From Bacteroidia bacterium (GTDB lineage: Bacteria > Bacteroidota > Bacteroidia > B-17B0 > Aurantibacillaceae): DNA of 64,000 bases. Every line of letters starts with the position of its first letter. The stretch's first letter is position 1. Position numbers and translations under genes: made by a program. Positions 44,001 to 61,527 of this stretch are shown here, in pieces. The notes beneath the pieces are model-generated. The model made no database searches. It was not told the origin of the DNA and was given only the letters and a program-made list of their open reading frames with translations. Where the stretch lies: contig JANYIQ010000036.1 of assembly GCA_025362575.1 (NCBI GenBank), forward strand, positions 1 through 64,000, written 5' to 3'.

Positions 44001-44082
44001 GCGGATGTGGCGTAATTGGTAGCCGCGCCAGACTTAGGATCTGGTGCCGTAAGGCGTGGGGGTTCGAGTCCCTTCATCCGTA
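44001..44082 (+). tRNA. tRNA-Leu (anticodon UAG)
   Basis: The gene folds as a class II tRNA. The acceptor stem is GCGGATG with CATCCGT (one G-U at the end), the anticodon stem is CCAGA/TCTGG with loop CTTAGGA giving anticodon UAG, and the long variable arm (TGCCGTAAGGCGTG) is typical of Leu. The T-loop is TTCGAGT. It is 82 bases with discriminator A and no encoded CCA. It is followed directly by a terminator whose sequence is duplicated 2.6 kb downstream. Confidence 0.97.
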
Positions 44083-44090
44083 CTAACAGG

Positions 44091-44127
44091 AAAACCCCTG
44101 ATAAAGTCTTATTTATCAGGGGTTTTT
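44091..44127 (+). terminator. tRNA-Leu terminator, within left copy of a direct repeat
   Basis: AAAACCCCTGATAAA and TTTATCAGGGGTTTTT form a perfect hairpin with loop GTCTTA and a T-run. It lies eight bases past the tRNA. The sequence from here to TGTTCGAG at 44188 (98 bases) recurs in slightly shorter form at 46705-46788. Confidence 0.9.
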
Positions 44128-44188
44128 GGTTCGATAAAGTATCGTTAAAAACACAAAACCCTTTATTTTCAAGCAGTACTTGTTCGAG
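44091..44188 (+). repeat. Direct repeat (att-like), left copy
   Basis: Terminator plus about 60 further bases, including CTTTATTTTCAAGCAGT and TTGTTCGAG, match 46705-46788 (TTTATTTTCAACCAGT and TTGTTCGAG). The main difference is about 14 extra bases in this copy. Repeats bracketing a unit next to a tRNA gene suggest an integration scar. Confidence 0.65.
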
Positions 44189-44318
44189 TTCTCCAAGGTT
44201 AAATTTAAAAATTGTATTTTCGAGATAGTTAAGAAAGTACAAAATTGAGCTGGTGTTAGCTGCAACCATTGCGAAACCCGAACCAACTTTGTAACGAAAC
44301 GAAATTGGCAAAAAACAA

Positions 44319-46538
44319 ATGAAAAAAGTAGTCCTCCTCTTTGTTATCTTGTATTTATTTCAACATCTATCTTTTTCTCAGAATAGGAAACTAGATTCTC
44401 TGAAAGTTGAACTGCAAAAAGCAACGCAGGATACTACCCGATTAAGAATTTATCTTGCCCTCGGAATTACTTGCGAAAGAAAAGATATATTATTATACGC
44501 TGAACCGGCTGCAAAACTGGCGGATAGACTTATTTTGCAGATTTCTAATGATAAAGAAAAAAATAAAATTTTTGGACAAAAAGCAATTGCTTATCATTTT
44601 ATTAGTGCCTTTTATACAGAAGGCAAGGATGCTGATATGAATAAAGCTTTAGAGTATAACAAAAAGATCATAAAAATATACGAGGATATAAATGACATTA
44701 AGAATCTTGTTCCTGAAATAGGTGGCTTGGCACAATTTTATTTATCTATTGGTGATTTCCCAAAAGCCCTGGAATCTGTTCAAAGAGCACTTTCCATTTC
44801 AAGGAAAATGAATTACAAATCAGGAATTGCAAAATGTATGTTATACTTTGCTGATATATATAGAGACAAGGGTGAAAATACACAGGCATTGGAAAACTAT
44901 CAAAACGCACTATCTCTTCTTACTGAAATAAAAGACACAGCCACTTTGTATAATGCGCTTGCTGCAACAGGAGGATTTTACTACAAAATAAATAATAAAC
45001 AAAAGGCGCTCGAGTATTACCATAAAGTAATTTTGTTGTGTACAGCTAATAAAGACTTAAAATATAGTGCAGGTGTAGTATATAAATGGATTGGACAGGT
45101 TTACAGGGATGATAAAGATTATGCAAATTCCTTATTAAATTACGAAAAGAGTTTGTTAATGTTGGAAAGTGCAAATGATTTAGAGAGGGTATTAGTTGTG
45201 CTGAACGATATTGGCACATTATTTTATAAACAAGGCAGATATGCCGAAGCCCTTGAATATTATTATAGATCTTTAAAGATATCCGCCGAACTAAAGTCCA
45301 TATATACTAAAGCATTGACCCAATATCGCCTGGCACTTACTTACAAAATGCAGAAAAATTATAGGGCTGCAAAAGAGAACAATGACCTTGCGCTAAATTT
45401 TTTGAAAACCCAATTCCAGATAAAAGATTACAGCATGTCCGAATTATTAGCTTCGCAAATTGATTCTGCCAATGGAAACGGAAACGGTGCTTTTGAGCAT
45501 TACAAGCAGTTTATTATACTAAATAATAAATTAAAAGGGGATGAAATACACAAAGCTGCGGAAAAAGAAAAATATCAAAATGAATATGATAAACAAAAAG
45601 CAGAGCAAAATAAAAAAGATGATTTGGCAAAAGCGGAAAGCAAAAAGCAAAAACTTATAATTCTTTTTATTGCTTTGGGTTTATTGTTTGTATTGGTTTT
45701 CGCAGGTTTTATATTTCGTTCTCTTCGTATAAGAAATAAGCAAAATAAAATTATTATAGAGCAGAAAAGCATTGTAGAAAACAAGCAAAAAGAAATACTT
45801 AATAGTATAGAATATGCTTTACGTATTCAAACCGCAATACTTCCGCCACAGCGCATAGTAAAACAATATTTAGAAAATTCATTTATACTTTATAAACCAA
45901 AAGACATCGTAGCAGGAGATTTTTATTGGATAGAAGCCGTTAATGATTTGGTTTTATTTGCAGCTTGCGATTGCACAGGGCACGGAGTGCCGGGGGCAAT
46001 GGTTTCAGTAGTTTGTCATAATGCACTTAACAGAGCAGTAAGAGAATTTGATTTAACTCAACCAGCCGCAATACTTGACAAGACAGCAGAAATAGTAATA
46101 GAAAACTTTTCTAAAAGCGAAGAAAAAATAAAAGATGGAATGGATATTTCTCTTTGTGCTTACAACTCTAAAACAAAAATAATTCAATGGGCAGGAGCTA
46201 ACAACGCTTTATGGTTATTACAAAACGGACAACTCATAGAAACCAAAGCAGACAAGCAACCCATCGGAATGAATGATGACAAGAAGCCATTTACAAACCA
46301 TACATTCACGCTCAACAATGGAGATACAATTTATCTTTTCACAGACGGTTTCGCAGACCAGTTTGGTGGCGACAAGAGAGAAAAGAAACTGACAAGAAAA
46401 AGATTTAAAGAACAATTATTATTAATTCAAAACAAATCATTGCAGGAACAAGGAATTGCCTTAGACAATTTCATAACTGGCTACAGGAAAGAAGTTGAGC
46501 AAGTGGACGACATACTCGTTATGGGCGTGAAGGTATAA
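44319..46538 (+). CDS. TPR-containing membrane SpoIIE-type serine/threonine phosphatase
   Basis: The 739-residue protein has a signal peptide, then about eight TPR-like repeats (residues ~70-390; for example ALESVQRALSISRKM and ALEYYYRSLKISAEL), a Lys/Glu-rich helix, one membrane span (LIILFIALGLLFVLVFAGFIF), a coiled coil and a C-terminal PP2C/SpoIIE domain. The domain has KDIVAGDFYWIEA, the metal-binding AACDCTGHGVPGAM, and TDGFADQFGGDKR. It should sense through periplasmic TPRs and dephosphorylate a cytosolic partner, often an anti-sigma-antagonist. It is the only gene inside the repeat-bounded unit. Confidence 0.92.
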   Translation: MKKVVLLFVILYLFQHLSFSQNRKLDSLKVELQKATQDTTRLRIYLALGITCERKDILLYAEPAAKLADRLILQISNDKEKNKIFGQKAIAYHFISAFYTEGKDADMNKALEYNKKIIKIYEDINDIKNLVPEIGGLAQFYLSIGDFPKALESVQRALSISRKMNYKSGIAKCMLYFADIYRDKGENTQALENYQNALSLLTEIKDTATLYNALAATGGFYYKINNKQKALEYYHKVILLCTANKDLKYSAGVVYKWIGQVYRDDKDYANSLLNYEKSLLMLESANDLERVLVVLNDIGTLFYKQGRYAEALEYYYRSLKISAELKSIYTKALTQYRLALTYKMQKNYRAAKENNDLALNFLKTQFQIKDYSMSELLASQIDSANGNGNGAFEHYKQFIILNNKLKGDEIHKAAEKEKYQNEYDKQKAEQNKKDDLAKAESKKQKLIILFIALGLLFVLVFAGFIFRSLRIRNKQNKIIIEQKSIVENKQKEILNSIEYALRIQTAILPPQRIVKQYLENSFILYKPKDIVAGDFYWIEAVNDLVLFAACDCTGHGVPGAMVSVVCHNALNRAVREFDLTQPAAILDKTAEIVIENFSKSEEKIKDGMDISLCAYNSKTKIIQWAGANNALWLLQNGQLIETKADKQPIGMNDDKKPFTNHTFTLNNGDTIYLFTDGFADQFGGDKREKKLTRKRFKEQLLLIQNKSLQEQGIALDNFITGYRKEVEQVDDILVMGVKV

Positions 46539-46597
46539 CACGAAAGAAATAAATGGCAACAGCTAACAGAGGATTGATGATTTAAGGCAAAAGGGAA

Positions 46598-46697
46598 TCA
46601 CGCTTCATTAAGAAGGTAACCATACAAGTCCCAAATCCGAGCAAGAAGCCTTGTATCTTCAAGGAGTTCGTTTATATTTGGTCTGGAAGGGGGTACG
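46598..46697 (-). pseudogene. Relic of a serine recombinase C-terminus
   Basis: On the minus strand the bases encode VPPSRPNINELLEDTR, then LLARIWDLYGYLLNEA and a stop, matching the C-terminal tail of the intact recombinase (VPPSRPNMNDILEDTR, then DLARIWDMYGYL) with conservative substitutions and many synonymous changes. The DNA match breaks at about 46697 and nothing upstream remains, so only the tail of a related but distinct recombinase gene survives. It abuts the second copy of the tRNA terminator. The sequence before it (46539-46597) holds nothing recognisable. Confidence 0.85.
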
Positions 46698-46704
46698 ATG
46701 ATGG

Positions 46705-46741
46705 AAACCCCCTGATAAAGTCTTATTTGTCAGGGGTTTTT
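46705..46741 (+). terminator. Duplicated Rho-independent terminator
   Basis: The hairpin of arms CCCCTGATAAA and TTTGTCAGGGG with a T-run still forms, with one G-T pair near the loop. It is now about 170 bases behind the SpoIIE gene and may end that transcript. Confidence 0.8.
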
Positions 46742-46788
46742 CCTCGAAATACAAAATAGTTTATTTTCAACCAGTTATTTTGTTCGAG
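46705..46788 (+). repeat. Direct repeat (att-like), right copy, including a terminator
   Basis: AAACCCCCTGATAAAG to TTTGTCAGGGGTTTTT is the same hairpin as behind tRNA-Leu with one base change in each arm. The downstream flank matches too. There is no tRNA sequence next to it. Confidence 0.75.
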
Positions 46789-47015
46789 ACTGGTAGCCTG
46801 TTTTTTTTTAAAGTTTTATTATATAAATTCCAATTGACAAAAAACATACATATTCATCCTTACAGCCTATTTAAATTTAAAGTGTGAATTATGTAATTCT
46901 TTAATTAATTTGTGTAATAGTTGGCTGTTATAAGAAGGTACTTTTGTTTCGAATAACTGTGATCTTTAAATCAAGTTATTTGTTATTTTTTTAATAGAGT
47001 TTAAAACAATCTAAC
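46789..47015. other. AT-rich intergenic region
   Basis: No gene-sized frame was found between the right repeat and the PKD/PD40 lipoprotein. A -7-like element lies near its end and is listed separately. There is no other feature I can support. Confidence 0.6.
46939..46946 (+). promoter_or_regulatory. -7-like element upstream of the PKD/PD40 lipoprotein
   Basis: TACTTTTG fits TAnnTTTG, 69 bases before the ATG. TTG elements lie 15 and 26 bases upstream, just outside the usual 17-23 spacing. Confidence 0.35.
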
Positions 47016-48332
47016 ATGAAAACACTAATGACCATAAAAAAAATTAAGTATTTGCTACCCATAATGGCAGTTTTAATTTTTGCGGCTTGTAAAAAACCTT
47101 CGACTGCTTGTTTTACCATGAGTTCTTCAACAATTTATATTGGGCAATCTGTAACTTTTTCATCCTGCTCGAAATGCACAAAATGTTCAAACCACAATAC
47201 AATAAGTGATTTACAGTGGGATTTCGGAGATGGTACGGCAGGAAGTGGCACACCAGTTGATCATACATACAACTCCGCAGGGCAATATAACGTGACTCTT
47301 ACAAGTAATGATGCTGACCATGACGCAAAAGGAACGGTTACCCAAGTAATTAATGTTGTAAAATATTCTGATCTAACCCGCGCAGGAAAATTCATTGCAT
47401 TTACTTCTAATCAAGATGGTGATTACGATATTTATCTTGCTCAGGTGGATGCCGGTGGGAATCTTGCAACTTCCAATCTTATTCTTGGTTCAAACCCTTA
47501 TAATATTACTAACTCTTTTAATAGTTTGGCTGACCGGGCTCCTAATTGGTCACCGGATGGAAATGCACTTATTTTTTCCGCAAAACGACCAAGCGGTGAG
47601 GAAAATATATACGCTTTCTTTTTTAATGGTAACGGAACTCTTGTATCTCCAACACCAGTAATAGTTGTTCCCCAAACTCAAGCTTGGGATGAAAACGCGG
47701 GTTTTTCTTCTGATGGAAACCATATTATTTTTGAAAGAAGGGTTGATCAAAATGCTAACGGTCTTGATAGTACCGACGCCCGGGATCTTTATATGGTCAA
47801 CATAACATTAGCCGCTTCATCTATTGTTGTAAATGGAACTGTTATTCAAGTAACAAATACTTCCGGTATTGACGAAGGGAATCCAAAATGGTCGCCATTA
47901 ATTTCAGTAGGCCGAGTTGCTTATGAACGACCTTCCTCTTCGACTTCCAGCGACCATGACATTTATATAATTGACCCATTAAATCCTACCAATAATTTAG
48001 TTTTTAATAATCCGGGGAGTTCGGGTTATCCAGCATGGACACCGGATTGTAGTTCTATTACATTCGAAAGTAATAGTGGTAATGGCGGTTTTTATAAAAT
48101 TGTAAATGCTTCTTATCCTAATAATGCAGGAACATCTGATGTGGCAAAAAGTAGTTCACAAGACTTTAGATATCCGACACGGATTCCTAATGGAGGAATG
48201 GTGGCTTATATACAAGTTAACCCTACAACATTTAAAGGAAATATTTACATTGTTCCAATAGGTGGAGGAACTTCAATAAAGTTGCTGCCTGCAAGTTTTG
48301 ATAATGCGGATAATGTTTTTCCGGCGTGGTAG
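47016..48332 (+). CDS. Lipoprotein with PKD domain and PD40/TolB-like propeller
   Basis: A lipobox (LIFAACKK) marks a lipidated Cys near residue 24 if the first ATG is used; ATG at codon 5 gives MTIKKIKYLL. A short CxxC region (CSKCTKCSNH) is followed by a PKD domain (DLQWDFGDGTAGSG, then HTYNSAGQYNVTLTSND). The remainder has several PD40-type blades (IAFTSNQDGDYDIYLAQ, PNWSPDGNALIFSA, GFSSDGNHIIFER, PAWTPDCSSITFESN). It probably binds or displays at the surface; function is not known. It lies between the repeat region and the recombinase. Confidence 0.85.
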   Translation: MKTLMTIKKIKYLLPIMAVLIFAACKKPSTACFTMSSSTIYIGQSVTFSSCSKCTKCSNHNTISDLQWDFGDGTAGSGTPVDHTYNSAGQYNVTLTSNDADHDAKGTVTQVINVVKYSDLTRAGKFIAFTSNQDGDYDIYLAQVDAGGNLATSNLILGSNPYNITNSFNSLADRAPNWSPDGNALIFSAKRPSGEENIYAFFFNGNGTLVSPTPVIVVPQTQAWDENAGFSSDGNHIIFERRVDQNANGLDSTDARDLYMVNITLAASSIVVNGTVIQVTNTSGIDEGNPKWSPLISVGRVAYERPSSSTSSDHDIYIIDPLNPTNNLVFNNPGSSGYPAWTPDCSSITFESNSGNGGFYKIVNASYPNNAGTSDVAKSSSQDFRYPTRIPNGGMVAYIQVNPTTFKGNIYIVPIGGGTSIKLLPASFDNADNVFPAW

Positions 48333-48457: not shown

Positions 48458-48658
48458 ATGAAAAAATCATTTTCAATAATTACTGTTCTGGTCATAGTTG
48501 CGCTGAGCTCTTGTAAAAAGGATTATACTTGTGTTTGTACATCGAGCGGCACCACTGTTTCTACAACTACGATTCATGCAACTAAGTCAAACGCCACCTC
48601 ACAGTGTAGTGCAATGAGTAGTTCGGGAAATAACGGGAAAACTTGTTCTATTCAATAA
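48458..48658 (+). CDS. Small Cys-rich lipoprotein
   Basis: The 66-residue protein has a signal peptide with lipobox VALSSCKK, then DYTCVCTSSGTTVSTTT and a Ser/Thr/Asn-rich mature part with two further Cys. Similar tiny lipoproteins beginning KDYTCVC are frequent in the phylum; none has a known role. It follows the PKD lipoprotein by 125 bases on the same strand. Confidence 0.7.
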   Translation: MKKSFSIITVLVIVALSSCKKDYTCVCTSSGTTVSTTTIHATKSNATSQCSAMSSSGNNGKTCSIQ

Positions 48659-48699: not shown

Positions 48700-50427
48700 T
48701 TAGTTTATTTGCCTGTTAGCATATTTTTTGAGATTAATATCCTGTAAACGATCTTTTACCAAATATCCATACATGTCCCAAATCCGAGCAAGATCCCTTG
48801 TATCTTCAAGGATGTCGTTCATATTTGGTCTGGAAGGGGGTACCAAAAGGGACTTTTGATCATTAAAATCATAAGTCCCTTTTTCTTTTTCCTCCAGATC
48901 CCTTGCTATATCTGACATTACAAAGGCCACTTCATTAATTTCCGGGGTTCGGAAATCACTTTTTTCACGATCATACGAGATCCCATTCGGAAACATTAAT
49001 TCTTGCAATTCCAGTTTACCCTTGTATCCGTTGGAAGTCCATAAAACATTGAGGTTGCAAAGGATCTGACAGTACTTTTCAAGCCTATTTTCGAGGTTCG
49101 AGTTCCGGAACCTCATGCCATCCAATTCCAGTTCAATTTCTGATTTTTCTTTTCTGTATTTACTTAGGAATTTTTGATACAACTCATTATCAATTTCTCC
49201 GATCACAAACCGCTCCTCCAGTTTTTCCATCTTTCCGGCGATCTCTGTTAAACGGCCTTTTAATATACTGGAATGGTTTAAACTCTCCTTTTCACTTTCA
49301 TTAAAATATTTGAAAAATTCCTCTTTTACCGGATCAATATATTTTGACATTAAAGTATAACTGTTCAGTTTCTCCGCAAATAGTTCATTTAAAGTCTTAG
49401 CGCTCCGGTTACATTTGCAACCGGTTTTATTACACTTATAGTACCATAGGCCCTTTTTCTTTACTTGGTAACCACAAAACGAACTACCACATTCGCCACA
49501 CTTTAAAAAATGCTTTAAGGGTACTTCCGAAAAATCTTTATCCAGCTTCCAGGTAACATTAGCTCCTTTTCCGTTATTGGCCAACAAGAAAATATCCATT
49601 GGTACCAATTTCTCTTGCTTGCCTTCTATTAACTGACCATTTAAAAGATTATGGCTTATAATCCCACAATAAAATGGATTGTTCAAGATCTTGGTTAATT
49701 TTTGCTTGTACATATTTATACCGGCATTTTTTAAACGGTACATTATTTCTGCGTTGGTTAATTTATCAACGGCTTTCCAATAAAATGCTTTACGAATTAG
49801 TTTCCCTGTTTCGTTAACCGTAATCTTTTGACGTTCTTCCAAGCCAACATTTTCTCGCTTCTTCCGCGTTATTTTGTCATAACCTAAAGGAGCTTTTAAA
49901 GGCCAATAACCATTTAACAGCATTTCTTTAAGGCCCGCCATACATTTTTCTTTTCGTAGGTCGTTATCATATTGAGAAAATATGAATTGCAAATTTTGCT
50001 GCATGATACCCGTTGAAGTTGACGTATCGGTAGGTTGAGTAACCGCAATAATTCGAATGTTTTGTTTTCTTAATTCGCTCGCTATGTAAATGGCATTGGC
50101 ACCGGAACGCGAAAAGCGATCATGACTATATACCACTATACAAGATATTTTTACTTTGCTTTGCTGAGCAAATTTTAGCATGCGATCAAACTCTTTACGT
50201 TCATCGGTTGCAGCACTTTCATAAGTACCGCCGAAGTAGGCAACTACGTTTAATTTCATTTTTTCACAATTCTCCTCAATTACGCGCTTTTGTGTTTCCA
50301 GGCTAAAACCTTTAGCTTGTTCTTTTGAAGATACACGGGTGTAGACTATACTATTTAAACCATCGATACGTCTGGCGAATTTATTCTTTTTAACAAAGGG
50401 TTTAAAAATCTCAAGATCTGTTTTCAT
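48700..50427 (-). CDS. Large serine recombinase (integrase)
   Basis: The 575-residue protein has a resolvase N-terminal domain with catalytic Ser33 in YTRVSSKEQAKG, then VVYSHDRFSRSGANAI, and the recombinase domain (MAGLKEMLLNGYWPLKAPLGY, GIISHNLL). A zinc ribbon CGECGSSF...CNKTGC lies near residues 313-340, then a long coiled coil and a C-terminal tail. It resembles transposon- or prophage-type large serine integrases, which act on attP/attB pairs without high-energy cofactors. The tail matches a relic at 46598-46697. No capsid or conjugation genes are near, so it belongs to a small or decayed element. Confidence 0.92.
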   Translation of the reverse strand: MKTDLEIFKPFVKKNKFARRIDGLNSIVYTRVSSKEQAKGFSLETQKRVIEENCEKMKLNVVAYFGGTYESAATDERKEFDRMLKFAQQSKVKISCIVVYSHDRFSRSGANAIYIASELRKQNIRIIAVTQPTDTSTSTGIMQQNLQFIFSQYDNDLRKEKCMAGLKEMLLNGYWPLKAPLGYDKITRKKRENVGLEERQKITVNETGKLIRKAFYWKAVDKLTNAEIMYRLKNAGINMYKQKLTKILNNPFYCGIISHNLLNGQLIEGKQEKLVPMDIFLLANNGKGANVTWKLDKDFSEVPLKHFLKCGECGSSFCGYQVKKKGLWYYKCNKTGCKCNRSAKTLNELFAEKLNSYTLMSKYIDPVKEEFFKYFNESEKESLNHSSILKGRLTEIAGKMEKLEERFVIGEIDNELYQKFLSKYRKEKSEIELELDGMRFRNSNLENRLEKYCQILCNLNVLWTSNGYKGKLELQELMFPNGISYDREKSDFRTPEINEVAFVMSDIARDLEEKEKGTYDFNDQKSLLVPPSRPNMNDILEDTRDLARIWDMYGYLVKDRLQDINLKKYANRQIN

Positions 50428-50432
50428 AAAAC

Positions 50433-50759
50433 TTAGTTTTTCTTATTTTCAATGTGTTGTTCGTTCAAATATAAATGATGCAATATTTTGGCCATTCTCT
50501 TTATCACATCAATTTGTTTGGCTGCATCCGCTTCGCTTGTGTTTTCGAAACCTTTATATTGCTTTAGCGTTTCAAAAGTTAATTCAGTTGTTCTAAACTG
50601 ATCAATTGGTTTGCGAGGGTATAAATTAAGGCCCTGTTTTTGCTCAACTGATCTTTTATTTAATAGGTCCTTAAACAAGGAAGGCACAGTTATAATAATT
50701 ACAACAACTGCTACTATAATAATAACATCAAATAGGCTTAGTTTTTTATCGATTTTCAT
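50433..50759 (-). CDS. Small membrane protein next to the recombinase
   Basis: The 108-residue protein has one hydrophobic helix (DVIIIVAVVVIIITVPSLF) and a charged helical tail (AAKQIDVIKRMAKILHHLYLN). It is on the same strand and ends five bases before the recombinase start, so the two are probably co-expressed. No family is recognised. It could be an accessory to integration or unrelated cargo. Confidence 0.6.
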   Translation of the reverse strand: MKIDKKLSLFDVIIIVAVVVIIITVPSLFKDLLNKRSVEQKQGLNLYPRKPIDQFRTTELTFETLKQYKGFENTSEADAAKQIDVIKRMAKILHHLYLNEQHIENKKN

Positions 50760-50891
50760 TTTAAATTTTTGTTGATGGTTATACTAATATACGATTAAAT
50801 ATTCCTGTTTCAGAAAATATTATTCACTGTAAAATATTTTGATCCTTTAATAGGGAGCAGGAAGACCATTTATAGAGGAAATCACAGATCC

Positions 50892-50956
50892 GATATGCAT
50901 TTTTGATATACCATTTCGATATACATTTTCTGTATACTTTTTTAGTATATAATAAA
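50892..50956. repeat. Iteron-like array, five units of 13 bases
   Basis: Five imperfect 13-base units run head to tail: GATATGCATTTTT, GATATACCATTTC, GATATACATTTTC, TGTATACTTTTTT and AGTATATAATAAA. Each has a gAtATac-like left half and a T-rich right half. The middle three are closest. The array is 130 bases upstream of the small membrane protein start and could bind a regulator, a replication protein or the integrase. Confidence 0.6.
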
Positions 50957-51168
50957 TATATATAGAACAGGTCAAAAACCTTCCTTCAAAGCAAAATTCA
51001 TATATCAATTCACATCTTTTACTTAATATATCGATCACTTTTTTATTCAATTATTCGTTTATTTAGTTATTTATTTTTTGAAGGGTGGATGAAATCTGAT
51101 TTTATGTATCATTTAGATGGTTAGAAGTAGAGATAAGTACCTATTCTGATCAAATTAAATATGTCTAT

Positions 51169-51240
51169 ATGGGAGGGGTTGTGATTGCAACTGGTGCAAT
51201 GGCAGCCTTAGTTGGAGGTTATGCTTTTTACAAATTATGA
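51169..51240 (+). CDS. Candidate 23-residue hydrophobic peptide
   Basis: ATG at 51169 begins MGGVVIATGAMAALVGGYAF and ends YKL, an Ala/Gly/Val-rich segment long enough for one membrane span. The frame is open about 22 codons further upstream without a good start. The stop overlaps the next start (ATGA). It may be a real micropeptide or the end of a decayed gene. Confidence 0.3.
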   Translation: MGGVVIATGAMAALVGGYAFYKL

Positions 51241-51296
51241 TCAAAGAGTTAGAGAAATTATTAGAATACATACAAACGGATAAGAAAGTCTATTGA
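51237..51296 (+). CDS. Candidate 19-residue charged peptide coupled to the previous one
   Basis: The frame starts at the ATGA overlap and reads MIKELEKLLEYIQTDKKVY. It is amphipathic and helical-looking. Length makes it doubtful on its own; the four-base overlap is the only structural support. Confidence 0.25.
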   Translation: MIKELEKLLEYIQTDKKVY

Positions 51297-51345
51297 TTCC
51301 AGATATCGTTAGAATATAATAAAACTGTGCATTACTGACATAATT

Positions 51346-52008
51346 TTATTTTAAATTAAGTGCATAGCCTACAAGGTGATTTGTAATTATTACATCATGA
51401 CCTAAGATCTTTCGTATCTTACTCATATGAACTTCAATTACGCGGCCTTTTAAAATTTTTTCATCGTTCCAAATTTTAGACGCTATTTCCTCTCTCGAAA
51501 AATATTTGCCAGGAACCGAATTTAAAAGAGTTAATATATGAAACCCTCTTTTTTGAATAATATAATCTTTGTTATGAATTGTTACCTTAAATTTTTCCTT
51601 ATCAATAAATATCCCAGCCGATTTAACTTTCGCTTTATCAATTCTTTTTAAAGTAGCAAATATTTTCAATTTGAATATATTCGAATTAATTGGCAGAGAA
51701 ATGAAATTATCTGCTCCTGAGTCCAAAGAATTAATAATAATAAAATCATCTGCTTTCTTTGAACAGATAAATATAATTGATTCCTTACTTTTATTATTCC
51801 TAATGTATTGCACAAGAGAAATTCCATCAATTTCATCAAGGTTTAAATCAATTATTATTAGATCAAAAAAGTGATCCTCAATGCATTTTTCAAAATCCAG
51901 ATAAGAACAGGTTGTTATAAGATCGCAATCTAATTTTCTTAGACACCTTTTATAAAATTCTGTGTTTGTTTTACTTATCGAATATACAATTCCGTTAAAG
52001 TTCGCCAT
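51346..52008 (-). CDS. OmpR-type response regulator with degenerate receiver
   Basis: The 220-residue protein has a receiver-like N-terminal half with a possible phospho-acceptor Asp54 (LIIIDLNLDEIDG). The acidic pair that binds Mg2+ is missing (residues 7-12 read IVYSIS), and the conserved Lys before Pro is Leu105 (ISLPINSN). The C-terminal winged helix is complete (REEIASKIWNDEKILKGRVIEVHMSKIRKILG, cited in parts, and ITNHLVGYALN). It may therefore work without phosphorylation. No histidine kinase is adjacent. Confidence 0.85.
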   Translation of the reverse strand: MANFNGIVYSISKTNTEFYKRCLRKLDCDLITTCSYLDFEKCIEDHFFDLIIIDLNLDEIDGISLVQYIRNNKSKESIIFICSKKADDFIIINSLDSGADNFISLPINSNIFKLKIFATLKRIDKAKVKSAGIFIDKEKFKVTIHNKDYIIQKRGFHILTLLNSVPGKYFSREEIASKIWNDEKILKGRVIEVHMSKIRKILGHDVIITNHLVGYALNLK

Positions 52009-52059
52009 TTCATGTTGCCAAGTATGTCAGAAATTATCTTTCTGATTAAAGGATATCGA

Positions 52060-52260
52060 TTAATTTTTTGCAATTATTTTCACACTATAGGCTTCCATTC
52101 CTTTTTTGGCTTGTCTAATTTCAAAAGTCACCTTATCACCTTTAACAATTGTTTCTGAGGGATTTTTTATGTAAAAATAGTAGTCGGTTCCGGTACTGTT
52201 TTCTTTAATAAAACCGAATCTGCTTTTTAAATTGAAAAATGTGACTTCTCCTTCCCGCAT
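52060..52260 (-). CDS. Cold-shock domain protein
   Basis: From the ATG at 52260, the 66-residue protein reads MREGEVTFFNLKSRFGFIKE, with RNP1-like SRFGFI and RNP2-like DYYFYI, then VTFEIRQAKKGMEAYSVKII. It is a CspA-type single-stranded nucleic-acid-binding fold; the RNP2 motif differs from the canonical VFVHF, so binding may be altered. ATG at 52266 adds two residues. It lies between the response regulator and a T9SS gene on the same strand. Confidence 0.85.
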   Translation of the reverse strand: MREGEVTFFNLKSRFGFIKENSTGTDYYFYIKNPSETIVKGDKVTFEIRQAKKGMEAYSVKIIAKN

Positions 52261-52273
52261 GTACAACTAATTC

Positions 52274-53227
52274 TTATTTAGAAATTAAAAAACGTTCGGT
52301 ATATGTTTTAGAGTCTTCGCTAACTCTAACAAAATATATCCCAGCAGGCAAGGTGTTTATATTAAGTTTGATTTTCCCATCTGGTAAGTTTTCTTTATTT
52401 TCGGAAATAATTGTCACACCTAATATATTGATAACCTCTATTTTTGAGTAATTGATGTTTTGAGGATCAAGATAAATAATATCTCCATCAACAGGATTAG
52501 GATATAATTTGAAGGAAGCATTAATATCATGTGATATTTCCGCGACCCCGGCACCGAGTGATGCTGATCCGCTCACTACAACAGAATCTATACTAAAAGT
52601 ACCGCTACTTCCTTCAGCATCCCAACCATAAAAGCGAAAAGAAACTGGACTCAAGACATTTGTGTATGGTACTCCTCCTAAAATTATACCACTGCCGCGT
52701 TGATCAAATGAAGTAGAAGTGGCATCCGCGGTCCAAAAAAAAGTGCTTCCGGTTTGCACCGCCAAAGCGGTATTTGTAGGGACGGTTAGTGTCGCTGTTA
52801 AATTGCTTGCATACCCACTAACACTACTTCTTAATGCGTAATGTCTTATACCTGTACCCGAACGACGTATATTAAAATTAATTTTATTGTATGTAATTCC
52901 GTACCCTGCTTGAGGAGTTAATGTAATGTTATAATAAATGGCGGTGTTAATGCTTCCTGTAAAAGTCAAGTCATTAGCATTGGTAGCACCAATTGGCCAC
53001 CCGGCAAACGAAAATCTTCCGGCTCCGCTTGAGCCCGTTCCGGTACCAACTGCCATAAAAGATCCGGAAGTAATTCCAGTCGCAATGGGAGGTGCTGTCG
53101 GATCTGTGGTTATTGGCGTCACTGTTCCGGCTACGGCCGAAAAATCATAAGTTAAATTAAATACTTGAGCGTTTGTTGTCTCAGTTATTGCAAAAATAGC
53201 AATTAAAGAAAGTAGTTTTTTGATCAT
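52274..53227 (-). CDS. T9SS-secreted beta-sandwich protein
   Basis: The 317-residue protein starts with a signal peptide ending TTNAQ. The central part is Thr/Ser/Gly-rich, with a beta-sandwich pattern (YYNITLTPQAGYGITYNKI, NVLSPVSFRFYGWDA, GTFSIDSVVVSGSASLG). It closes with a T9SS type A sorting domain (FKLYPNPVDGDIIYL to YTERFLISK). No enzyme motif was recognised. It should be a surface or secreted protein. Confidence 0.82.
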   Translation of the reverse strand: MIKKLLSLIAIFAITETTNAQVFNLTYDFSAVAGTVTPITTDPTAPPIATGITSGSFMAVGTGTGSSGAGRFSFAGWPIGATNANDLTFTGSINTAIYYNITLTPQAGYGITYNKINFNIRRSGTGIRHYALRSSVSGYASNLTATLTVPTNTALAVQTGSTFFWTADATSTSFDQRGSGIILGGVPYTNVLSPVSFRFYGWDAEGSSGTFSIDSVVVSGSASLGAGVAEISHDINASFKLYPNPVDGDIIYLDPQNINYSKIEVINILGVTIISENKENLPDGKIKLNINTLPAGIYFVRVSEDSKTYTERFLISK

Positions 53228-53898
53228 GGTTTCCAGTTTTAAAGTGTTAAAGTTAAGTTGTATGTATAAAGTTTTTGTTAATTAGTTATTATGATAAGTT
53301 AAACCTTGTTTAAAATAATTCACGGTAATCTTCTGTAATAATCTTTACTAAAATGCATATTCTCTTATAAAGTTATAAAGTACAATCCATTTGGCATTTA
53401 TTTTAAATTGAATTTTATCTTCGAATCATTAAATGTTTTGCTTATCATTAACCGCCATAAAGCATTATCAATTTTAACAACCTTTTTTACAAAACATTAA
53501 ACATAATTTTCATTTCTTTAAGCCTTTGAAATGGAATTTTGTATTTAGGTTAGTAAAACTTTCAATGTCAATGATCAATTCCCAGAAAAAAATTCCGTTC
53601 TGCCTTTAGTACAAAAATTTATTTCCTACAAAAAGATTTTGGTATAGCAAGTGAAAATAATTCCAAATACACTTAGGTAAAAAATTTGATGAATATTTAA
53701 TGCGCGCTTCATATTAATAAAATGAATTAATTATTTATAGAAGTGGTTTTGGAATATAAAGAAGAGCTCTTTTTTAAACCTGTAGGATTTTCACTCCAAC
53801 TACGATGAACAAATGTCGTTCTAATTCCTTAAACTTAATGTTATAATTTTGTTAACTTTAATTTAAGAGAATGCTAAGTAAAGATCTTGGGATTAAAA
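53228..53898. other. AT-rich intergenic region
   Basis: I read both strands and found no frame with a plausible start and length, no tRNA and no strong hairpin. Several short frames of 12-15 codons are chance. It separates two minus-strand genes. Confidence 0.6.
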
Positions 53899-54309
53899 TT
53901 AACTATGGCTATATAGATAGAAATTATTACCCTCGCTGTCTTTTAACTCAGTATAGTAACCCACCTGATTATCTATTAGATTCGTGCCAATAATTGTTTC
54001 GCCATTTTTATTTTTTTGTCTTAGTAACGTGGGCAAACTTACAACTTGCCCTCCATTATCTTTTACTCTTTGAACTGCTGAATGGAGAATATCGGCATGA
54101 AAAATTAATTTCACTCCATTTCCTCCTGAATAGTTCTCAACTTCAACCAGAGATCCCTTTATCCCTATGTCTTCTTTTTTAAAAAAAGCCATAGGTTTAT
54201 CAAAAACTGTTCGAACGTCAAGTTTCGTTTCTAAAACTTTTTCGTAAAATGTTACAGCCCTGGTGAAATTTGAAACCGGAATCTCCACCCATAAAATATT
54301 AGATTTCAT
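53899..54309 (-). CDS. VOC-family (glyoxalase/bleomycin-resistance-like) protein
   Basis: The 136-residue protein has the paired beta-alpha-beta-beta-beta layout of the vicinal oxygen chelate fold: ILWVEIPVSNFTRAVTFYEKVL, LVEVENYSGGNGVKLIFHADI, then TNLIDNQVGYYTELKDSEGNNFYLYSHS. A metal ligand set cannot be fixed without a structure; a Glu in YYTELKDSEGN and a His in IFHADI are candidates. The chemistry is unknown. Confidence 0.82.
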   Translation of the reverse strand: MKSNILWVEIPVSNFTRAVTFYEKVLETKLDVRTVFDKPMAFFKKEDIGIKGSLVEVENYSGGNGVKLIFHADILHSAVQRVKDNGGQVVSLPTLLRQKNKNGETIIGTNLIDNQVGYYTELKDSEGNNFYLYSHS

Positions 54310-54460
54310 ATAGAAAATATTTAAATTTAAACATACAAACGGAAAGTAACCACTGCGTTACAAGAATATTAAATTTTCTTCTCAGGCCTTGTTTTTTTGA
54401 ACACAATGCCCACCTCTTGGAATTTTTTTTGAACCCATTTCTTGATGGATAAACTTGGCA

Positions 54461-55633
54461 TTAATTAAGAATGAGCTTAAGGTTTAAAGCTTTTAAGCCA
54501 TTTGAGCTTTTTAGGAAATAGAACCCCTTTTGCAAGTTAACTTTAGAAATAGTGGTTACATTTGCCACATCGTCTAAGAGCGCTTCTTTAACCATGTTTC
54601 CCTGCGCATCAAACAACCGAACTCTTTCGTTTATATATTGTGAATTGAAATGGATGTTAATGTTGCTCTCGCTCTGATCTACCCATGTGGCTTTTGCATT
54701 CCCATCAAAATTTACAACAATTATTTTTCCTTCCCCAATCGAACTATTATTATCAAAACTGCTAAGCCTATAATAATTGGTTCCTCTTGATGGATAGTAA
54801 TCGGTTGTTTGATAACTTTGATTGGTTCCATAAACTGTATTATTGGCATAAATTGCTGATAGTTTTTCCCAAACAATTCCATCATAACTTTTTTCAATTA
54901 AATAGTAGTTAACGTTTTTTTCTGAAGCGACGGACCATTCGATGTTAACTTTGTCACTCAGTATTTGCCCTTTAAATAGTATTAATTCAATGGGCAATAC
55001 ACCACCACAACTTGGACCACAGGTTCCTGACAGATTTATTGTGTAGGTCATTATTTCGTCGGCGCGATTTGATGTTCCTCCAATAGTAACAACGCCTCCG
55101 GTAACAATCATTTTGAGTGTCCCGTCAGCATTGTTGCATCCGGGAGAAAGACTTGCCACTGCAGTTGTATAAACTCCCAGAGTGGGATATAGCGCACAAG
55201 TACCAACGTTTACATCTATAGTTGAACTTTGCGAGGCAACTACCCCCCCAGCCTGAGTGATCTGAAAACCATCCGGTGAACCATCCATCCCACAATTACT
55301 GCACCCTACACCTGATGGATTAACAGGTGCTCCAAAATAATTTCTTTTTTTATATTCAGCTACTACAGTAGCAGTACAGCCCGCAGGAATGGAATACGAA
55401 GTTGATCTCGAGTACGCAACTCCTCCGGAAGTTGCAACTGTGCCACAGGCAACGGGCGTGAATGCAGGCACATAAAGAGATGCAAGATTGCAATAGTTTA
55501 CACCGTTACCGCATCCGGCTGTTGAGCCGGGGTCAGTCATTGCACCACTAATGTAACAGCCGCTAAAGGAAACCTGAGAGAAGTTGTTTAGCGTTAGCAA
55601 TAAAATTTCTGTTATATATAGTAATCGTTTCAT
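54461..55633 (-). CDS. Cys-rich T9SS-secreted protein downstream of the adhesin
   Basis: The 390-residue protein has a signal peptide (MKRLLYITEILLLTLNNFS) and an N-terminal domain with at least six Cys (GCYISGAMTDPG, GCGNGVNYCNL, CSNCGMDGSPDG). A fibronectin-like segment follows (LSDKVNIEWSVASEKNVNYYLIE), and a T9SS sorting domain ends it (LFDAQGNMVKEAL to LNLKLILN). It begins four bases after the SprB-like gene and is probably expressed with it. Confidence 0.8.
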   Translation of the reverse strand: MKRLLYITEILLLTLNNFSQVSFSGCYISGAMTDPGSTAGCGNGVNYCNLASLYVPAFTPVACGTVATSGGVAYSRSTSYSIPAGCTATVVAEYKKRNYFGAPVNPSGVGCSNCGMDGSPDGFQITQAGGVVASQSSTIDVNVGTCALYPTLGVYTTAVASLSPGCNNADGTLKMIVTGGVVTIGGTSNRADEIMTYTINLSGTCGPSCGGVLPIELILFKGQILSDKVNIEWSVASEKNVNYYLIEKSYDGIVWEKLSAIYANNTVYGTNQSYQTTDYYPSRGTNYYRLSSFDNNSSIGEGKIIVVNFDGNAKATWVDQSESNINIHFNSQYINERVRLFDAQGNMVKEALLDDVANVTTISKVNLQKGFYFLKSSNGLKALNLKLILN

Positions 55634-55637
55634 TTTT

Positions 55638-58600
55638 TTATTTTATAAGGGTCACATGTCCGGTAAACTCTTTTGCCTTTCCAAACACATTGGTAACATT
55701 AATAACCCAAGTGTATATGTCTTCTTTAACTTCTTTATTGCCTCTGTTTTGATATGTTCCATCCCAGGCATCCTGTATATCATTGCTTGTAAATAATTTT
55801 TCACCCCAACGATCAAAAATGTTCATTTCAAATTTTGTGATTCCATAACCCTTAGCATAAAACCGATCATTAACACCATCGCCATTAACTGTAAAGGCGT
55901 TAGGAACATAAATCCCAAAGTCTTCACCAACAAGTATTGATTTAAGAGTTGTGTCAACACAACCATAATCACTTTTCACTATTAGAGCAATTACAAATTG
56001 ACCGGCATCCTTATAAACATATACCGGGTTTTGTAAATTGGAGGTTGCAGAAGCATTATTCATAAAGTACCAATTCCAATTTGTAATATTTGCTCCATAA
56101 GATGCATCAGTAAAATGAACGTCGGCATCCTCGTTTACGATTGGTTTATAAGGGTTATAATTGAAATCTGCGGTGGGTTTAGGATAAACCTGAACTGTAT
56201 AAATAGTTGTGGTATTTTGACAGCCATTAGCATCAATAACTGTTGAGGTGATAGTATATACTCCAGGACTTTGATAACAGGCATTAGAGTTTATGTTTCC
56301 ATTGGTATAGGAACCATCTCCCATAATCCAGTTTACTGTTGCACCCGGTGTTGTCTGACAAGTAAATGAAACGCATAAAGGTGTGCAACCTTTTGGAGCA
56401 TTCGCTAAAATTACGGAAGGAGGTGTACCTGCAATGATAATGGCAGTATTAGCCTGCGCATTGGGTACTGAGCACCCATCAGAAACTATTACAGTATAAT
56501 TCTGACTTGCTGATGGAGAAACAGTAATCGACTGACCTGTTAAATTGCCCGGTAACCACAAGTAATTGTAATTGCCATTTCCGCCGCTTGCGTTTGCTGT
56601 TAGCGCTTTGCTTACCCCCGGACAAATTGTATAATTTGGGCTTACCGATACCGACAGCGCAGGAGACACATTAATTAAAGCTGTGTCCGCTGAAGAAGAA
56701 CATCCATTTGCATCAATTACTGTTAGTGTATAAATCGTGGTTACTGATGATGAAACTGAAGTTGGGCTTGGTCCAGCTATTCCATTCCAGATAAATGTAT
56801 AGGGTGAATTACCTCCACTTGCCAAACCGAATAAATTCCCGGATTGACCATAACATAATTTAATTCCGTTTGCACTGGCAATAATTGGTGGAGGTTGATT
56901 AATTATTGTTGAAATCACATAGCTGCAATTATTCGCGTCTGTAATTGTTGTTGAATAGGTTCCTGCGCTTAATCCACCTGCGATTGTAGCTATACCGCCT
57001 GTTGGACTCCAGCTATAACTATAAGGAGATGTTCCACCAGTTGCAGTTACAGTTGAGCTTCCATTTGTTCCTGCATTGCAACTTGTACTGGTTGATAAAA
57101 TTGAAGCTCCCAATTTACTTGGCTGAGTAATTATTCCTACGGCTATAATTTTGCAATTATTTATATCCATAACAGTTACAGAATAACTGCCAGCGCTAAG
57201 TCCACCGGCAGATGCCGCACTACCGCCTGATGGAACCCAGGTGAATGTATAACCCGGCGTCCCTCCGCCTGCAATTACCGAGGCGCTCCCATTGGCCGCA
57301 CCATTGCAGGTTGCATCGGTTGATGTAATAACAGCACTTAATGCACTTGGTTGTGTTATCGTAACCGATGCATTGATTATACAGTTGTTGATATCTTTGA
57401 CAGTTAGAGTATAACCTCCGGCTACAAGCGCACTTGCGCTTATTCCTGATCCTCCTGATGGTGACCAGCTATAAGTATATCCCGCCGTTCCGCCACCAAC
57501 TGTTACAGAAGAAACTCCATTAGCAGCTCCGTTACAAGTTACATTTGTTGAAGTTATTGCTATTGTTAAAGCTGAAGGTTCGGTTATAATGGAATTTATA
57601 GAAGTTGTACAATTGTTGGCGTCTGTAATTGTTAATGTATAGTTTCCCGCAATCAGTCCATTTGCACTTGCAGCTGAACCGCCCGTTGGTGACCAGCTAT
57701 ATGCATATCCCGGTGTCCCGCCTCCGGTAACCGAATTTATAACTCCGTTTGAACCGCCATTGCAGGTAACATTATTTGTGTTGATAGTGGTTGTAATTGC
57801 ACCGGGTTGTGTAATAATAGCTGTTGCCGAAACACCACAATTATTAGCATCCTTAACAATTACTGTATATGTTCCTGCCGTTAGTCCAGAAACGTTAGAC
57901 GTTCCTTGACCTGCTCCAGGTGCAGGCGACCAAGTATAAGAATAGGGAGCCGAACCTCCACTTACATTTATAGTAGACGCTCCGGTAGCACCACCGAAAC
58001 ATTTCACATTATTTATGTTAACGGTGGTTGTAATAACAATCGGTTGGTTAACCATGGCAACTGCAGTTACTGCACAATTATTAACGTCTTTTACAGTAAC
58101 TGTATAACTTCCTGCTGCAAGTCCGTTTGCAGTTGCCCCGGTTCCACCTGTCGGTAGCCAATTATAAGTATAGCCTGGAGTTCCACCACCCGCTGTCACC
58201 GCTGCTGAACCGTTAGATAATCCACAAGTTGCCAGTGTTGTTGTGGTAATTGCAGTTAAAGCGGTCGGTTGTGTTATGTTCGCAACAGCTGTTATAGTAC
58301 AATTATTGACGTCTTTTACAGTAACTGTATAACTTCCTGCTGTAAGTCCTGCTGCAGTTGCCGCTGTTCCTCCTGAAGATGTCCAGTTATAAGTATAACC
58401 GGAAGTTCCTCCACCAACTGTTACTGATGCAATACCATTAGTCGCTCCATTGCAAGCTACATTGGTTGAGGTGATAGCTGTTGTTAGCGCACTTGGTTGG
58501 GTAATAATAGCCGTTGCCGAGATACTACAGCTGTTAACATCAGAAATGATTATCGTATAAGTTCCTGCTATAAGCCCTGAAACGTTAGATGTTCCTTGAC

Positions 58601-60803
58601 CTGCACCAGGTGCAGGCGACCAAGTATAAGAATAGGGAGCCGAACCTCCACTTACGTTTATAGTAGACGCTCCGGTAGCACCACCGAAACATTTCACATT
58701 GCTTACATTAACGGTAGTTGACATTGCAACCGGTTGGTTAACTACCGCAACAGAAGTAATTGTACAATTATTTACATCCTTCACAGTTACAGTATAACTA
58801 CCGGCCGCGAGCCCACTGGCTATTGATCCGGTTCCACCGGATGGTGACCAGCTATAAGTGTATCCTGGTGTTCCGCCACCTGCTGTTACTGAGGCAATAC
58901 CATTAGTCGCTCCATTGCAAGTTACATTGGTTGAGGTGATAGCTGTTGTTAGCGCACTTGGTTGAGTAATTGTTGCGACTGCTGTTACAGTACAATTTAA
59001 TGCATCCTTAATTACAACACTGTAGGATCCTGCCGTAAGTCCTGAAACGTTAGATGTACCCTGACCCCCTCCTGGTGCAGGTGACCAGGTGTATGTGAAG
59101 GGTCCCGTCCCACCACCAATATTTACCGTAGAAGATCCTGTTGCCGAACTATTACAGGGTAAATTTGTTGAACTGATTGTAGTTGTCATTGAAACGGGTT
59201 GAGAAATAACTGCAACTGCAGTTATGGTACAGTTATTTATATCCTTTACTATTACAGTATATGAACCGGCAGCAAGTCCGCTGGCTGTTGATCCGGTTCC
59301 ACCGAATGGTGACCAGCTATAAGTGTATCCTGGTGTTCCGCCACCTACCGTTACTGCCGCAGATCCATTAGTACTACCGCAGGTCGCATTTGTAGAAGTA
59401 ATTGCTGCTGTCAATGATGGTGGTTGGGTTATTATTGTTGCCGCAGTTATTGAACAACCATTGATATCTTTTACTGTTACAGTATAAGTGCCAAGCCCAA
59501 GCCCAGAAGCGATGGCCGCGTTTCCTCCAGAAGGTGCCCATGTATAAGTATAACCGGGAGTTCCACCTGCCGCGGTTAGTGTTGCGCTTCCGTTATTAGA
59601 TCCATTGCAGGTTACATTCGTTTTAATAATTGTTGCAGAGAGTATAGGAGGCTGAATAATTGAAATTGTTTTTGTAACGATGCAATTATTTCCGTCCTTA
59701 ATTTGAACAGAATAAGTACCGGCTGTTAAACCGGATGCTGTCGATGAGTTTCCACCTGTTGGAGACCAGGTATAAGTAAATGGCGCAGCTCCCGTAACTG
59801 AAACTGTTCCACTTCCATTACTTCCGCCGAAACAGGTTACGCTTTGTGAAACGGGAGGAATAGCGAAGTTTGACACGCTTACTGTTTGAGTATACGAGCC
59901 CGGGGGATTGCATTGACCGCCGCTAACAGATAGAGTAACTGAATAAATTCCTGGCCCTGAAAATATATGTGTAGGGTTTGCAATATTAGAAACATTAGAA
60001 GGTCCTGAAAGTGGGTCTCCGAAGTTCCATGTATAAGTGCTAACTGTTGGGCATGGGGGATTAATTGCTGTAAAGTTATTGCAATTAACACTAAATGTTG
60101 AAGCATGTGGCATTCCTTCTGAAATTGTAAAATCATCGATCGCCTCACCATCATATGAATTGCAAGTAGTACCGGAGCCCATAAGAAAACGAAAAATCAC
60201 GTTTGGTTGATTGGCTAATCCAACCAAGCAATGCTTCGCAGTTAGCCAGCCGCCACTTCCAAATCCTCCTGTACAAGATCCAGCTGTAGCACCAATTCTT
60301 CCTGACCACCCATGTTTAGTAGGGATCGAAGTCAGCCAAGTGATGTTTCCATAATTATACCAATTAGCAGTATTGCAATCTGGGGCATCGCCAAAAGCGC
60401 CAACATTTATCCAGGTAGCACCACTGTTTATAGAATATTGCAAAACCATTCCATCCCATTGTCTTTCACATTCCCAAAATATTTTAAAGGATACCCAAGG
60501 ATAGTTAAGAGTAGAGAAATTATAACATGGGCTTTGAATCCAACACTGCTCTGAAAAAGCATAAGACGAACCCGTTAATCCGCCTACACACCAACTTTTT
60601 GTACCCCCACCGGCAGTATTAATTGTTGGATGGGCTGGTGTTCCCCATGCCCAATCATTATTTGCTCCTCCTGAGGTCCAGGTGGGAGCGGCTTCAAATG
60701 TTTCAGTGTTTGGATAAGTGTTTATGCATTGTGCTTTTAAATTTGTAGTTAACAAAAATGCAAATGAAATCAACACTTTTAATATTGTGATATACCCTTT
60801 CAT
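55638..60803 (-). CDS. SprB-type repeat adhesin with gliding-type (T9SS type B) C-terminus
   Basis: The 1721-residue protein has a signal peptide, an N-terminal module with a PKD-like repeat (STYTWNFGDPLSGPSN) and then 13 tandem SprB repeats of 76-79 residues (about residues 330-1330). Each has a Cys pair (NVTCNG ... NNCTIT), GGGTPGYTYSWSPSGG and GLAAGSYTVTVKD. Ig-like and PKD domains follow (WIMGDGSYTNGN, WNWYFMNNASATSN). The C-terminal domain NAFTVNGDGVNDRF ... IFDRWGEKLF ... AWDGTY is the gliding-motility-associated type B sorting domain. SprB is the moving adhesin of gliding Flavobacteria; repeats 6 and 9 are nearly identical at DNA level. Confidence 0.93.
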   Translation of the reverse strand: MKGYITILKVLISFAFLLTTNLKAQCINTYPNTETFEAAPTWTSGGANNDWAWGTPAHPTINTAGGGTKSWCVGGLTGSSYAFSEQCWIQSPCYNFSTLNYPWVSFKIFWECERQWDGMVLQYSINSGATWINVGAFGDAPDCNTANWYNYGNITWLTSIPTKHGWSGRIGATAGSCTGGFGSGGWLTAKHCLVGLANQPNVIFRFLMGSGTTCNSYDGEAIDDFTISEGMPHASTFSVNCNNFTAINPPCPTVSTYTWNFGDPLSGPSNVSNIANPTHIFSGPGIYSVTLSVSGGQCNPPGSYTQTVSVSNFAIPPVSQSVTCFGGSNGSGTVSVTGAAPFTYTWSPTGGNSSTASGLTAGTYSVQIKDGNNCIVTKTISIIQPPILSATIIKTNVTCNGSNNGSATLTAAGGTPGYTYTWAPSGGNAAIASGLGLGTYTVTVKDINGCSITAATIITQPPSLTAAITSTNATCGSTNGSAAVTVGGGTPGYTYSWSPFGGTGSTASGLAAGSYTVIVKDINNCTITAVAVISQPVSMTTTISSTNLPCNSSATGSSTVNIGGGTGPFTYTWSPAPGGGQGTSNVSGLTAGSYSVVIKDALNCTVTAVATITQPSALTTAITSTNVTCNGATNGIASVTAGGGTPGYTYSWSPSGGTGSIASGLAAGSYTVTVKDVNNCTITSVAVVNQPVAMSTTVNVSNVKCFGGATGASTINVSGGSAPYSYTWSPAPGAGQGTSNVSGLIAGTYTIIISDVNSCSISATAIITQPSALTTAITSTNVACNGATNGIASVTVGGGTSGYTYNWTSSGGTAATAAGLTAGSYTVTVKDVNNCTITAVANITQPTALTAITTTTLATCGLSNGSAAVTAGGGTPGYTYNWLPTGGTGATANGLAAGSYTVTVKDVNNCAVTAVAMVNQPIVITTTVNINNVKCFGGATGASTINVSGGSAPYSYTWSPAPGAGQGTSNVSGLTAGTYTVIVKDANNCGVSATAIITQPGAITTTINTNNVTCNGGSNGVINSVTGGGTPGYAYSWSPTGGSAASANGLIAGNYTLTITDANNCTTSINSIITEPSALTIAITSTNVTCNGAANGVSSVTVGGGTAGYTYSWSPSGGSGISASALVAGGYTLTVKDINNCIINASVTITQPSALSAVITSTDATCNGAANGSASVIAGGGTPGYTFTWVPSGGSAASAGGLSAGSYSVTVMDINNCKIIAVGIITQPSKLGASILSTSTSCNAGTNGSSTVTATGGTSPYSYSWSPTGGIATIAGGLSAGTYSTTITDANNCSYVISTIINQPPPIIASANGIKLCYGQSGNLFGLASGGNSPYTFIWNGIAGPSPTSVSSSVTTIYTLTVIDANGCSSSADTALINVSPALSVSVSPNYTICPGVSKALTANASGGNGNYNYLWLPGNLTGQSITVSPSASQNYTVIVSDGCSVPNAQANTAIIIAGTPPSVILANAPKGCTPLCVSFTCQTTPGATVNWIMGDGSYTNGNINSNACYQSPGVYTITSTVIDANGCQNTTTIYTVQVYPKPTADFNYNPYKPIVNEDADVHFTDASYGANITNWNWYFMNNASATSNLQNPVYVYKDAGQFVIALIVKSDYGCVDTTLKSILVGEDFGIYVPNAFTVNGDGVNDRFYAKGYGITKFEMNIFDRWGEKLFTSNDIQDAWDGTYQNRGNKEVKEDIYTWVINVTNVFGKAKEFTGHVTLIK

Positions 60804-60878
60804 TTTAATAATTTTATTTTATTAATAATGAAGTGGCTTTGGTGAATCAAATCGCCTCAAGGGTTTTCACTTCTGAGA

Positions 60879-60906
60879 CAAAAGTAATCTAACCAATTCA
60901 ATGCAA
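60879..60906 (-). promoter_or_regulatory. Probable promoter of the SprB-like gene
   Basis: On the minus strand TTG (60906-60904), 17 bases, then TACTTTTG (60886-60879) fit the Bacteroidota consensus. The -7 box lies 76 bases before the start codon, leaving a leader of about 70 bases. Confidence 0.5.
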
Positions 60907-61144
60907 TAATAAGGGTGTATTAAATTTAGGTAAAATATTTGTTGAAGTATTAACTCTCATTTTTGCAGCACTCAGTATTTAAAACTAAGCTCACTCACTG
61001 TACTTGATGATTGAACCTAGAAACTTAAGGTTTCAATCAAAGAAATAAGATTTAACAAAGACTTTACCTAATTTTTTTCGAACTTTATGTAATATTATCT
61101 GTCGAACAATTAAATTATTTGAAAAATTCATGTCGTTTATCTAT
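60907..61144. other. AT-rich gap upstream of the adhesin promoter
   Basis: The region between the promoter and the startless frame holds nothing I can support: no gene-sized frame, no tRNA and no clear repeat. Confidence 0.5.
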
Positions 61145-61480: not shown

Positions 61481-61527
61481 CTAGTGTCAGTTATCCTCTA
61501 AATATAATAGGAGCGTTATGGCTTGTT

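Follow-up and report, generated by a model that had tools for sequence, protein, structure and literature searches.

A probable tandem array of three units behind a tRNA-Leu gene in Bacteroidia, and a related clade of large serine recombinases at tRNA 3' ends

Introduction

How did a terminator and a piece of recombinase coding sequence come to stand twice behind the same tRNA gene? This question is raised by a locus that we analysed within a continuous stretch of 64,000 nucleotides (the window, from here on). Our answer, to which we assign a probability of about 0.78, is that three units stand in tandem behind tRNA-Leu, at its 3' end, in the order tRNA / T1-SpoIIE-tail / T2-PKD-small ORF-tail / recombinase body-cargo, an arrangement that would have arisen through a serine recombinase joining the tRNA 3' end with a site across the 3' terminus of the recombinase gene. 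The parts, as they appear in this reading, are the following.

44001..44083, + strand: tRNA-Leu (anticodon tag), anchor of the array (ARAGORN; comparison with the empty sites L051 and L052)
44080..44200, + strand: T1, left end of unit 1, with GTAC, terminator hairpin and conserved flank (nhmmer 44081-44200)
44319..46538, + strand: unit 1 cargo, a 739-aa TPR-SpoIIE phosphatase
46601..46696, - strand: unit 1 right end (tail, P arm), ending in ..GGGGGTAC; its minus-strand reading is VPPSRPNINELLEDTRLLARIWDLYGYLL
46693..46802, + strand: T2, left end of unit 2, of older appearance (74% to consensus)
47016..48332, + strand: unit 2 cargo, a 438-aa PKD / PD40 beta-propeller protein
48458..48658, + strand: unit 2 cargo, a 66-aa small ORF
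48751..48843, - strand: unit 2 right end (tail), fused in frame to the recombinase body and forming the recombinase C-terminus
48700..50427, - strand: unit 3, a 575-aa large serine recombinase whose body is residues 1-530
48846..48881, + strand: terminator hairpin and T-run on the tRNA strand, within the recombinase 3' coding end (z -6.1)
50428..64000, - strand: probable unit 3 cargo (response regulator, glyoxalase-like, SprB/PKD type IX-secreted giant, SpoIIE)

All junctions of the array have GTAC and all units share one orientation. No right end of unit 3, and no further tail, is present before the contig ends at 70,096. Within the probable cargo of this unit, positions 55638-60803 (- strand) code for a 1721-aa protein in which SprB repeats and PKD domains are combined with a type IX secretion signal, and have a G+C content above that of the surroundings.

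Results

Repeats and empty sites

The terminator behind tRNA-Leu recurs as the original prediction had described, with 44089-44127 and 46703-46741 being 95% identical over 39 bp (2614 bp from start to start) and a second block in the flank 81% identical over 42 bp. The single large gene that the two copies were said to bracket is also there, and its product carries TPR repeats and a SpoIIE phosphatase domain. The recombinase stretch claimed to lie next to the second copy could be recovered in part: positions 46617-46696 are 91% identical over 80 bp to 48764-48843, but this covers only residues 531-559, approximately, of the recombinase, and the last 16 residues differ. Since the best other matches within the window reach only 59% identity for T1 and 46% for the tail, neither repeat can be attributed to chance.

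Two genomes of the same genus (L051 and L052) have the same left-hand genes as the window and provide the empty site. In both, a different terminator stands behind tRNA-Leu(tag), after which comes a yqgE-like gene (identified by its sequence), and at this site there is no copy of T, no phosphatase and no tail. The tRNA-Leu 3' end reads ..CATCCGTAC in the window and ..CATCCGCAC in these homologues. As both T copies are missing from the empty sites, they arrived with the inserted DNA, and the earlier proposal of successive integrations of related elements at tRNA-Leu is supported; the observation named beforehand as speaking against it, both terminators present in an empty site, was not made. 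The accompanying proposal, that integration copied a terminator of the host tRNA while a recombinase gene decayed to a relic of 100 bases, appears very improbable. Both terminators and the shared recombinase stretch do exist, but the ancestral terminator is neither T1 nor T2. Each of these forms the left end of an inserted unit and belongs to a module of about 120 bp whose first bases are exactly GTAC, copies of which stand in other genomes behind other tRNAs and behind tails.

The comparison with contig G005:C18, made over 1817-43934, showed that the segment of the window at 1.8-22.8 kb (about 1-22.8) is inverted relative to 22.8-43.9 kb. One breakpoint falls exactly at the tRNA-Leu/yqgE junction, that is, at the attachment site, and for this reason the sequence behind the array does not lead into the old right flank. 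In L052 (about 160 bp downstream of tRNA-Leu) and in L051 the last 24 bp or so of tRNA-Leu are repeated together with the terminator, likely the scar of a different, older integration. Position 72 of the tRNA (C to T) was considered as a signature of integration and dropped, given that an element-free tRNA-Leu(taa) of the same genome also has T72.

The catalytic domain of the SpoIIE gene (45771-46549) is 92% identical in DNA to a contig from a genome of another family (G039:C29). This match spans the catalytic domain only, without the TPR part and without the unit ends, so mobility of the SpoIIE unit, initially considered on this basis, was rejected. The window SpoIIE gene is a mosaic gene.

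The recombinase and its targets

The protein encoded by unit 3 has the make-up of a large serine recombinase (LSR), namely a catalytic Resolvase domain with an invariant serine (Ser33, in all 12 sequences compared), a Recombinase domain, a zinc ribbon and a coiled coil. The Pfam domains are PF00239, PF07508 and PF13408, with the zinc ribbon just under the cut-off (25.2 against 25.3). The AlphaFold model (AF2) has a mean pLDDT of 75 and a pTM of 0.35 and is to be read at domain level only; the closest folds in the PDB are serine integrase complexes, including those of Bxb1 and PhiC31. The tail is modelled as a low-confidence helix past a linker, outside all known domains. Orthologues with 56-69% identity align up to residue 530-533 or earlier and lack the tail.

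In these orthologues the 3' end of the gene runs antisense into the 3' end of a tRNA, which in the first set was Leu, Val, Met, Arg or Ser. In a class-wide set of 33 recombinase loci (the best-scoring matches only, three of them loci from the first set that reappear with public accessions), 30 adjoin a convergent tRNA 3' end, adding Phe, Pro and Asp to the list. A tRNA target is thus the rule in this recombinase clade and not the exception that had been supposed. At least six of the 25 tRNA hits in this genome carry such a recombinase, and the clade is present in 63 of the 395 Bacteroidia genomes sampled. Plasmid and phage collections gave no match to the recombinase at E 1e-20.

The recombinase 3' ends have a second feature in common. 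All 14 examined contain a strong hairpin followed by a T-run on the tRNA strand (z between -5.1 and -7.7), and six close homologues show compensatory changes at 5 of the 14 pairs, positions that are also constrained by the codons. The 11 correctly placed junctions (L117 stands outside this count) all cross GTAC in the same phase. When both ends of the G011 element were joined in silico, a single frame of 573 codons resulted.

The left end: the T module

The T module measures about 120 bp and comprises a terminator and its conserved flank. It was found after tRNA-Leu(tag), tRNA-Leu(caa) and tRNA-Leu(taa), and also after tails of the first and second types (see below), and it recurs in several genera with many different cargos. 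Among 87 genomes of the family, 12 have both T and the tail, 4 only T, 7 only the tail and 64 neither (Fisher p = 3.6e-7, a value that overstates independence, these being draft and related genomes). We considered that T might be the 3' end of another recombinase gene, a possibility that was discarded because the minus-strand frame is open only in the T1 of the window, where a difference of 1 bp accounts for it; most other copies have this frame closed, and the module is non-coding in general. Another kind of arm is seen at G000:C10, around 5809-5825 (L037), where a T module is attached to a shortened tRNA-Leu 3' end (CTCCCTTCATCCGTAC); no tRNA gene was found at this junction.

The right end: the tail

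The stretch shared with the recombinase had been regarded as a relic of a recombinase gene, but its distribution identifies it as the common right end of the units. It is present in 19 of the 87 genomes of the family, often in multiple copies, and also in two other families. Tails occur without a recombinase in many genomes and are missing from the recombinase orthologues, and they end at the same GTAC junction and continue into many different sequences, observations that are hard to reconcile with a decayed gene. Most copies end at GTAC, after which comes T, a recombinase 3' end or one of various mostly terminator-like sequences.

The variation among tails is of the kind seen in coding sequences. 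In 29 tails, 40% of the changes are synonymous against 25% expected, in one frame only and not in the two shifted frames. The tail of the first type is fused in frame to recombinases with as little as 27% identity to that of the window, and there is a second type, with the same reading phase, that is joined to another recombinase of this genome (G000:C200) and free-standing in G061. These in-frame fusions and the bias toward synonymous changes suggest that the right end is a swappable C-terminal exon. Some tails (L045, L093 and L096) contain stop codons and consequently not all of them can act as C-termini. Further types of right end (VPQRIAVPNQINVDLAKIDNIRFVEF; VPYGLDLSNFIDDFQAIRTLMN) were observed at L050 576-651, L105 6816-6869, L095 11389-11454 and L100 6343-6396, which suggests a repertoire of alternative coding right ends.

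Could the tail simply be a small gene or RNA of its own that spreads independently of the recombinase? It does occur on its own, a stop codon closes it, and its variation resembles that of a coding sequence. Its start codon, though, is not conserved (ATG, ATA, GTA or TCG are found at that position), and almost every copy of the tail runs up to a GTAC-like junction, on the far side of which lies T, a recombinase 3' end or another terminator-like sequence. The in-frame fusions to such distant recombinases, and the same behaviour in a second and unrelated type of tail, also argue against independence, making this explanation exceedingly improbable.

Units and arrays in other genomes

Stretches running from T to tail measure 0.8-7 kb and carry one to several genes, mostly on the tRNA strand. 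Their cargo is unrelated from one to another and includes Reg_prop propellers, AraC plus a short-chain dehydrogenase, SnoaL-like and ORF6N proteins, a trans-2-enoyl-CoA reductase and others. The array of G011, behind tRNA-Leu(caa), begins with a 27-kb recombinase unit that is followed by T-tail1, -tail2, T-tail1, -tail2 and T-tail1, amounting to six inferred units in a single orientation. G019 was examined as the right-flank empty site for this array and rejected, its left genes matching and its right flank not. For several arrays (G006, G086), the stretch analysed contained no tRNA.

Ordinary accretion would be another way to arrive at such arrays. The units would be dead, CIME-like deletion derivatives of autonomous elements in which both ends happened to survive, there would be no movement of cassettes, and the tail would have no function after integration. 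Accretion of CIMEs is well known (PMC5704250), and the unit of G041 fits this description, with the last part of a recombinase gene at the tRNA, paired with a tail 3.2 kb away that contains a stop codon. The pairing itself also counts in favour of the array reading. On the other hand, T is a separate conserved left end and not a trimmed recombinase, and its association with many cargos in several genera suggests that the units move as such. We regard accretion of dead derivatives as a rather unlikely account, one that still deserves some weight.

Proposed mechanism

In the array reading that we prefer, attB would be the tRNA 3' end joined to whatever lies downstream, and attP would be the joint of tail and recombinase body, placed across the 3' end of the recombinase gene itself. 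Integration would then produce an attL made of tRNA and body and an attR made of tail and the old downstream sequence. The 3' end of the body, or T in the units without a recombinase, would provide the tRNA with a new terminator hairpin. The last residues of the recombinase would come from whatever lies past GTAC, which would be the tail in the circle or behind another unit and antisense tRNA in the remaining cases, so that the tail would be read as the last 30-45 residues only when joined to a body.

The small units, which keep both ends and have no recombinase, probably owe their position to the enzyme's action in trans, with the newest one beside the tRNA. The order seen in the window would follow if unit 2, and then unit 1, had entered next to the tRNA. 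T1 is nearer to the consensus than T2 (94% vs 74%), a weak indication that fits unit 1 entering last.

A more ambitious version would make this system the serine-recombinase counterpart of the integron. The tRNA 3' ends would be fixed entry points for the ordered capture of small cargo units, each bounded by a terminator on the left and by coding sequence on the right. The latter would be a swappable C-terminal exon that signals to the recombinase whether its gene is in a free circle or integrated and so sets the direction of the reaction. We put this forward as a speculative and, at present, unlikely proposal.

Significance

In PMC4383910, tRNA islands are described as catalysed by tyrosine integrases. 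If our reading is true, a clade of large serine recombinases that is common in Bacteroidia inserts at many different tRNA 3' ends, a niche usually given to tyrosine integrases. The clade would then be a source of new tRNA-targeting serine integrases for genome engineering, and the units would represent a second cassette-like route to collecting accessory genes. The idea of a recombinase that senses its own state of integration through a self-exchanged C-terminus would become testable.

Comparison with known systems

Like the present system, the staphylococcal cassette chromosome (SCC, with CcrA/B/C) uses a large serine recombinase, enters at a gene's 3' end and forms tandem composite islands. 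In SCC the target is rlmH, whereas here the targets are tRNAs and attP lies inside the recombinase gene. CcrB is the best NCBIfam match of the window recombinase, at 84.3 bits against a cut-off of 900, which leaves the protein outside the Ccr family.

Classical examples of CIMEs and of accretion use tyrosine integrases. What defines a CIME (cis-mobilizable element) is the loss of the integrase with both attachment sites kept, and CIMEs, ICEs and IMEs can be stacked in tandem at one target (PMC5704250). Units 1 and 2 and their relatives have such ends, with T at the left, the tail at the right and no recombinase between them. They differ from the classical examples in being associated with a serine recombinase, in being units of one to few genes and in having a separate conserved left end.

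The streptococcal ICEs that target rumA have a large serine integrase whose gene contains attP at its 3' end, and the C-terminus of the protein is exchanged on integration (PMC4701971). Similarly, the antisense-tRNA and tail C-termini described here diverge at one point and in the same phase, two states from which we infer the exchange. The rumA target is a protein gene and the exchange there shifts the reading frame, while here insertion is at tRNA 3' ends and the phase is constant. In addition, the recombinase end doubles here as a tRNA terminator, and units without a recombinase share the right end. No conjugation module was found among ten of the proteins of the G011 element.

In Archaea an integrase gene is split at its own attP, and a review called such splitting exclusive to this domain (PMC8371274). 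The "suicidal" integrases of the SSV type resemble our case in having attP within the integrase gene, a tRNA target and a stray integrase end after integration (PMC8371274). They are, however, tyrosine recombinases whose gene is broken by integration, and the window protein falls outside this type, being a serine recombinase that keeps its known domains intact when integrated and exchanges only its last 30-45 residues.

Integron cassettes are likewise small cargo units in one orientation with a fixed entry point. The differences are that integrons use a tyrosine and not a serine recombinase, that the junctions here look like double-stranded GTAC sites with a terminator arm and a coding arm instead of attC hairpins, and that several genes per unit are possible. 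A literature search, mostly at the level of titles and abstracts and covering few subscription papers, did not turn up a serine clade that targets tRNAs and combines terminator overlap with cassette-like units. CIME accretion, SCC and the rumA ICEs are the precedents of this system; the tRNA target, the overlap with the terminator and the cassette-like units are what appears to be new here.
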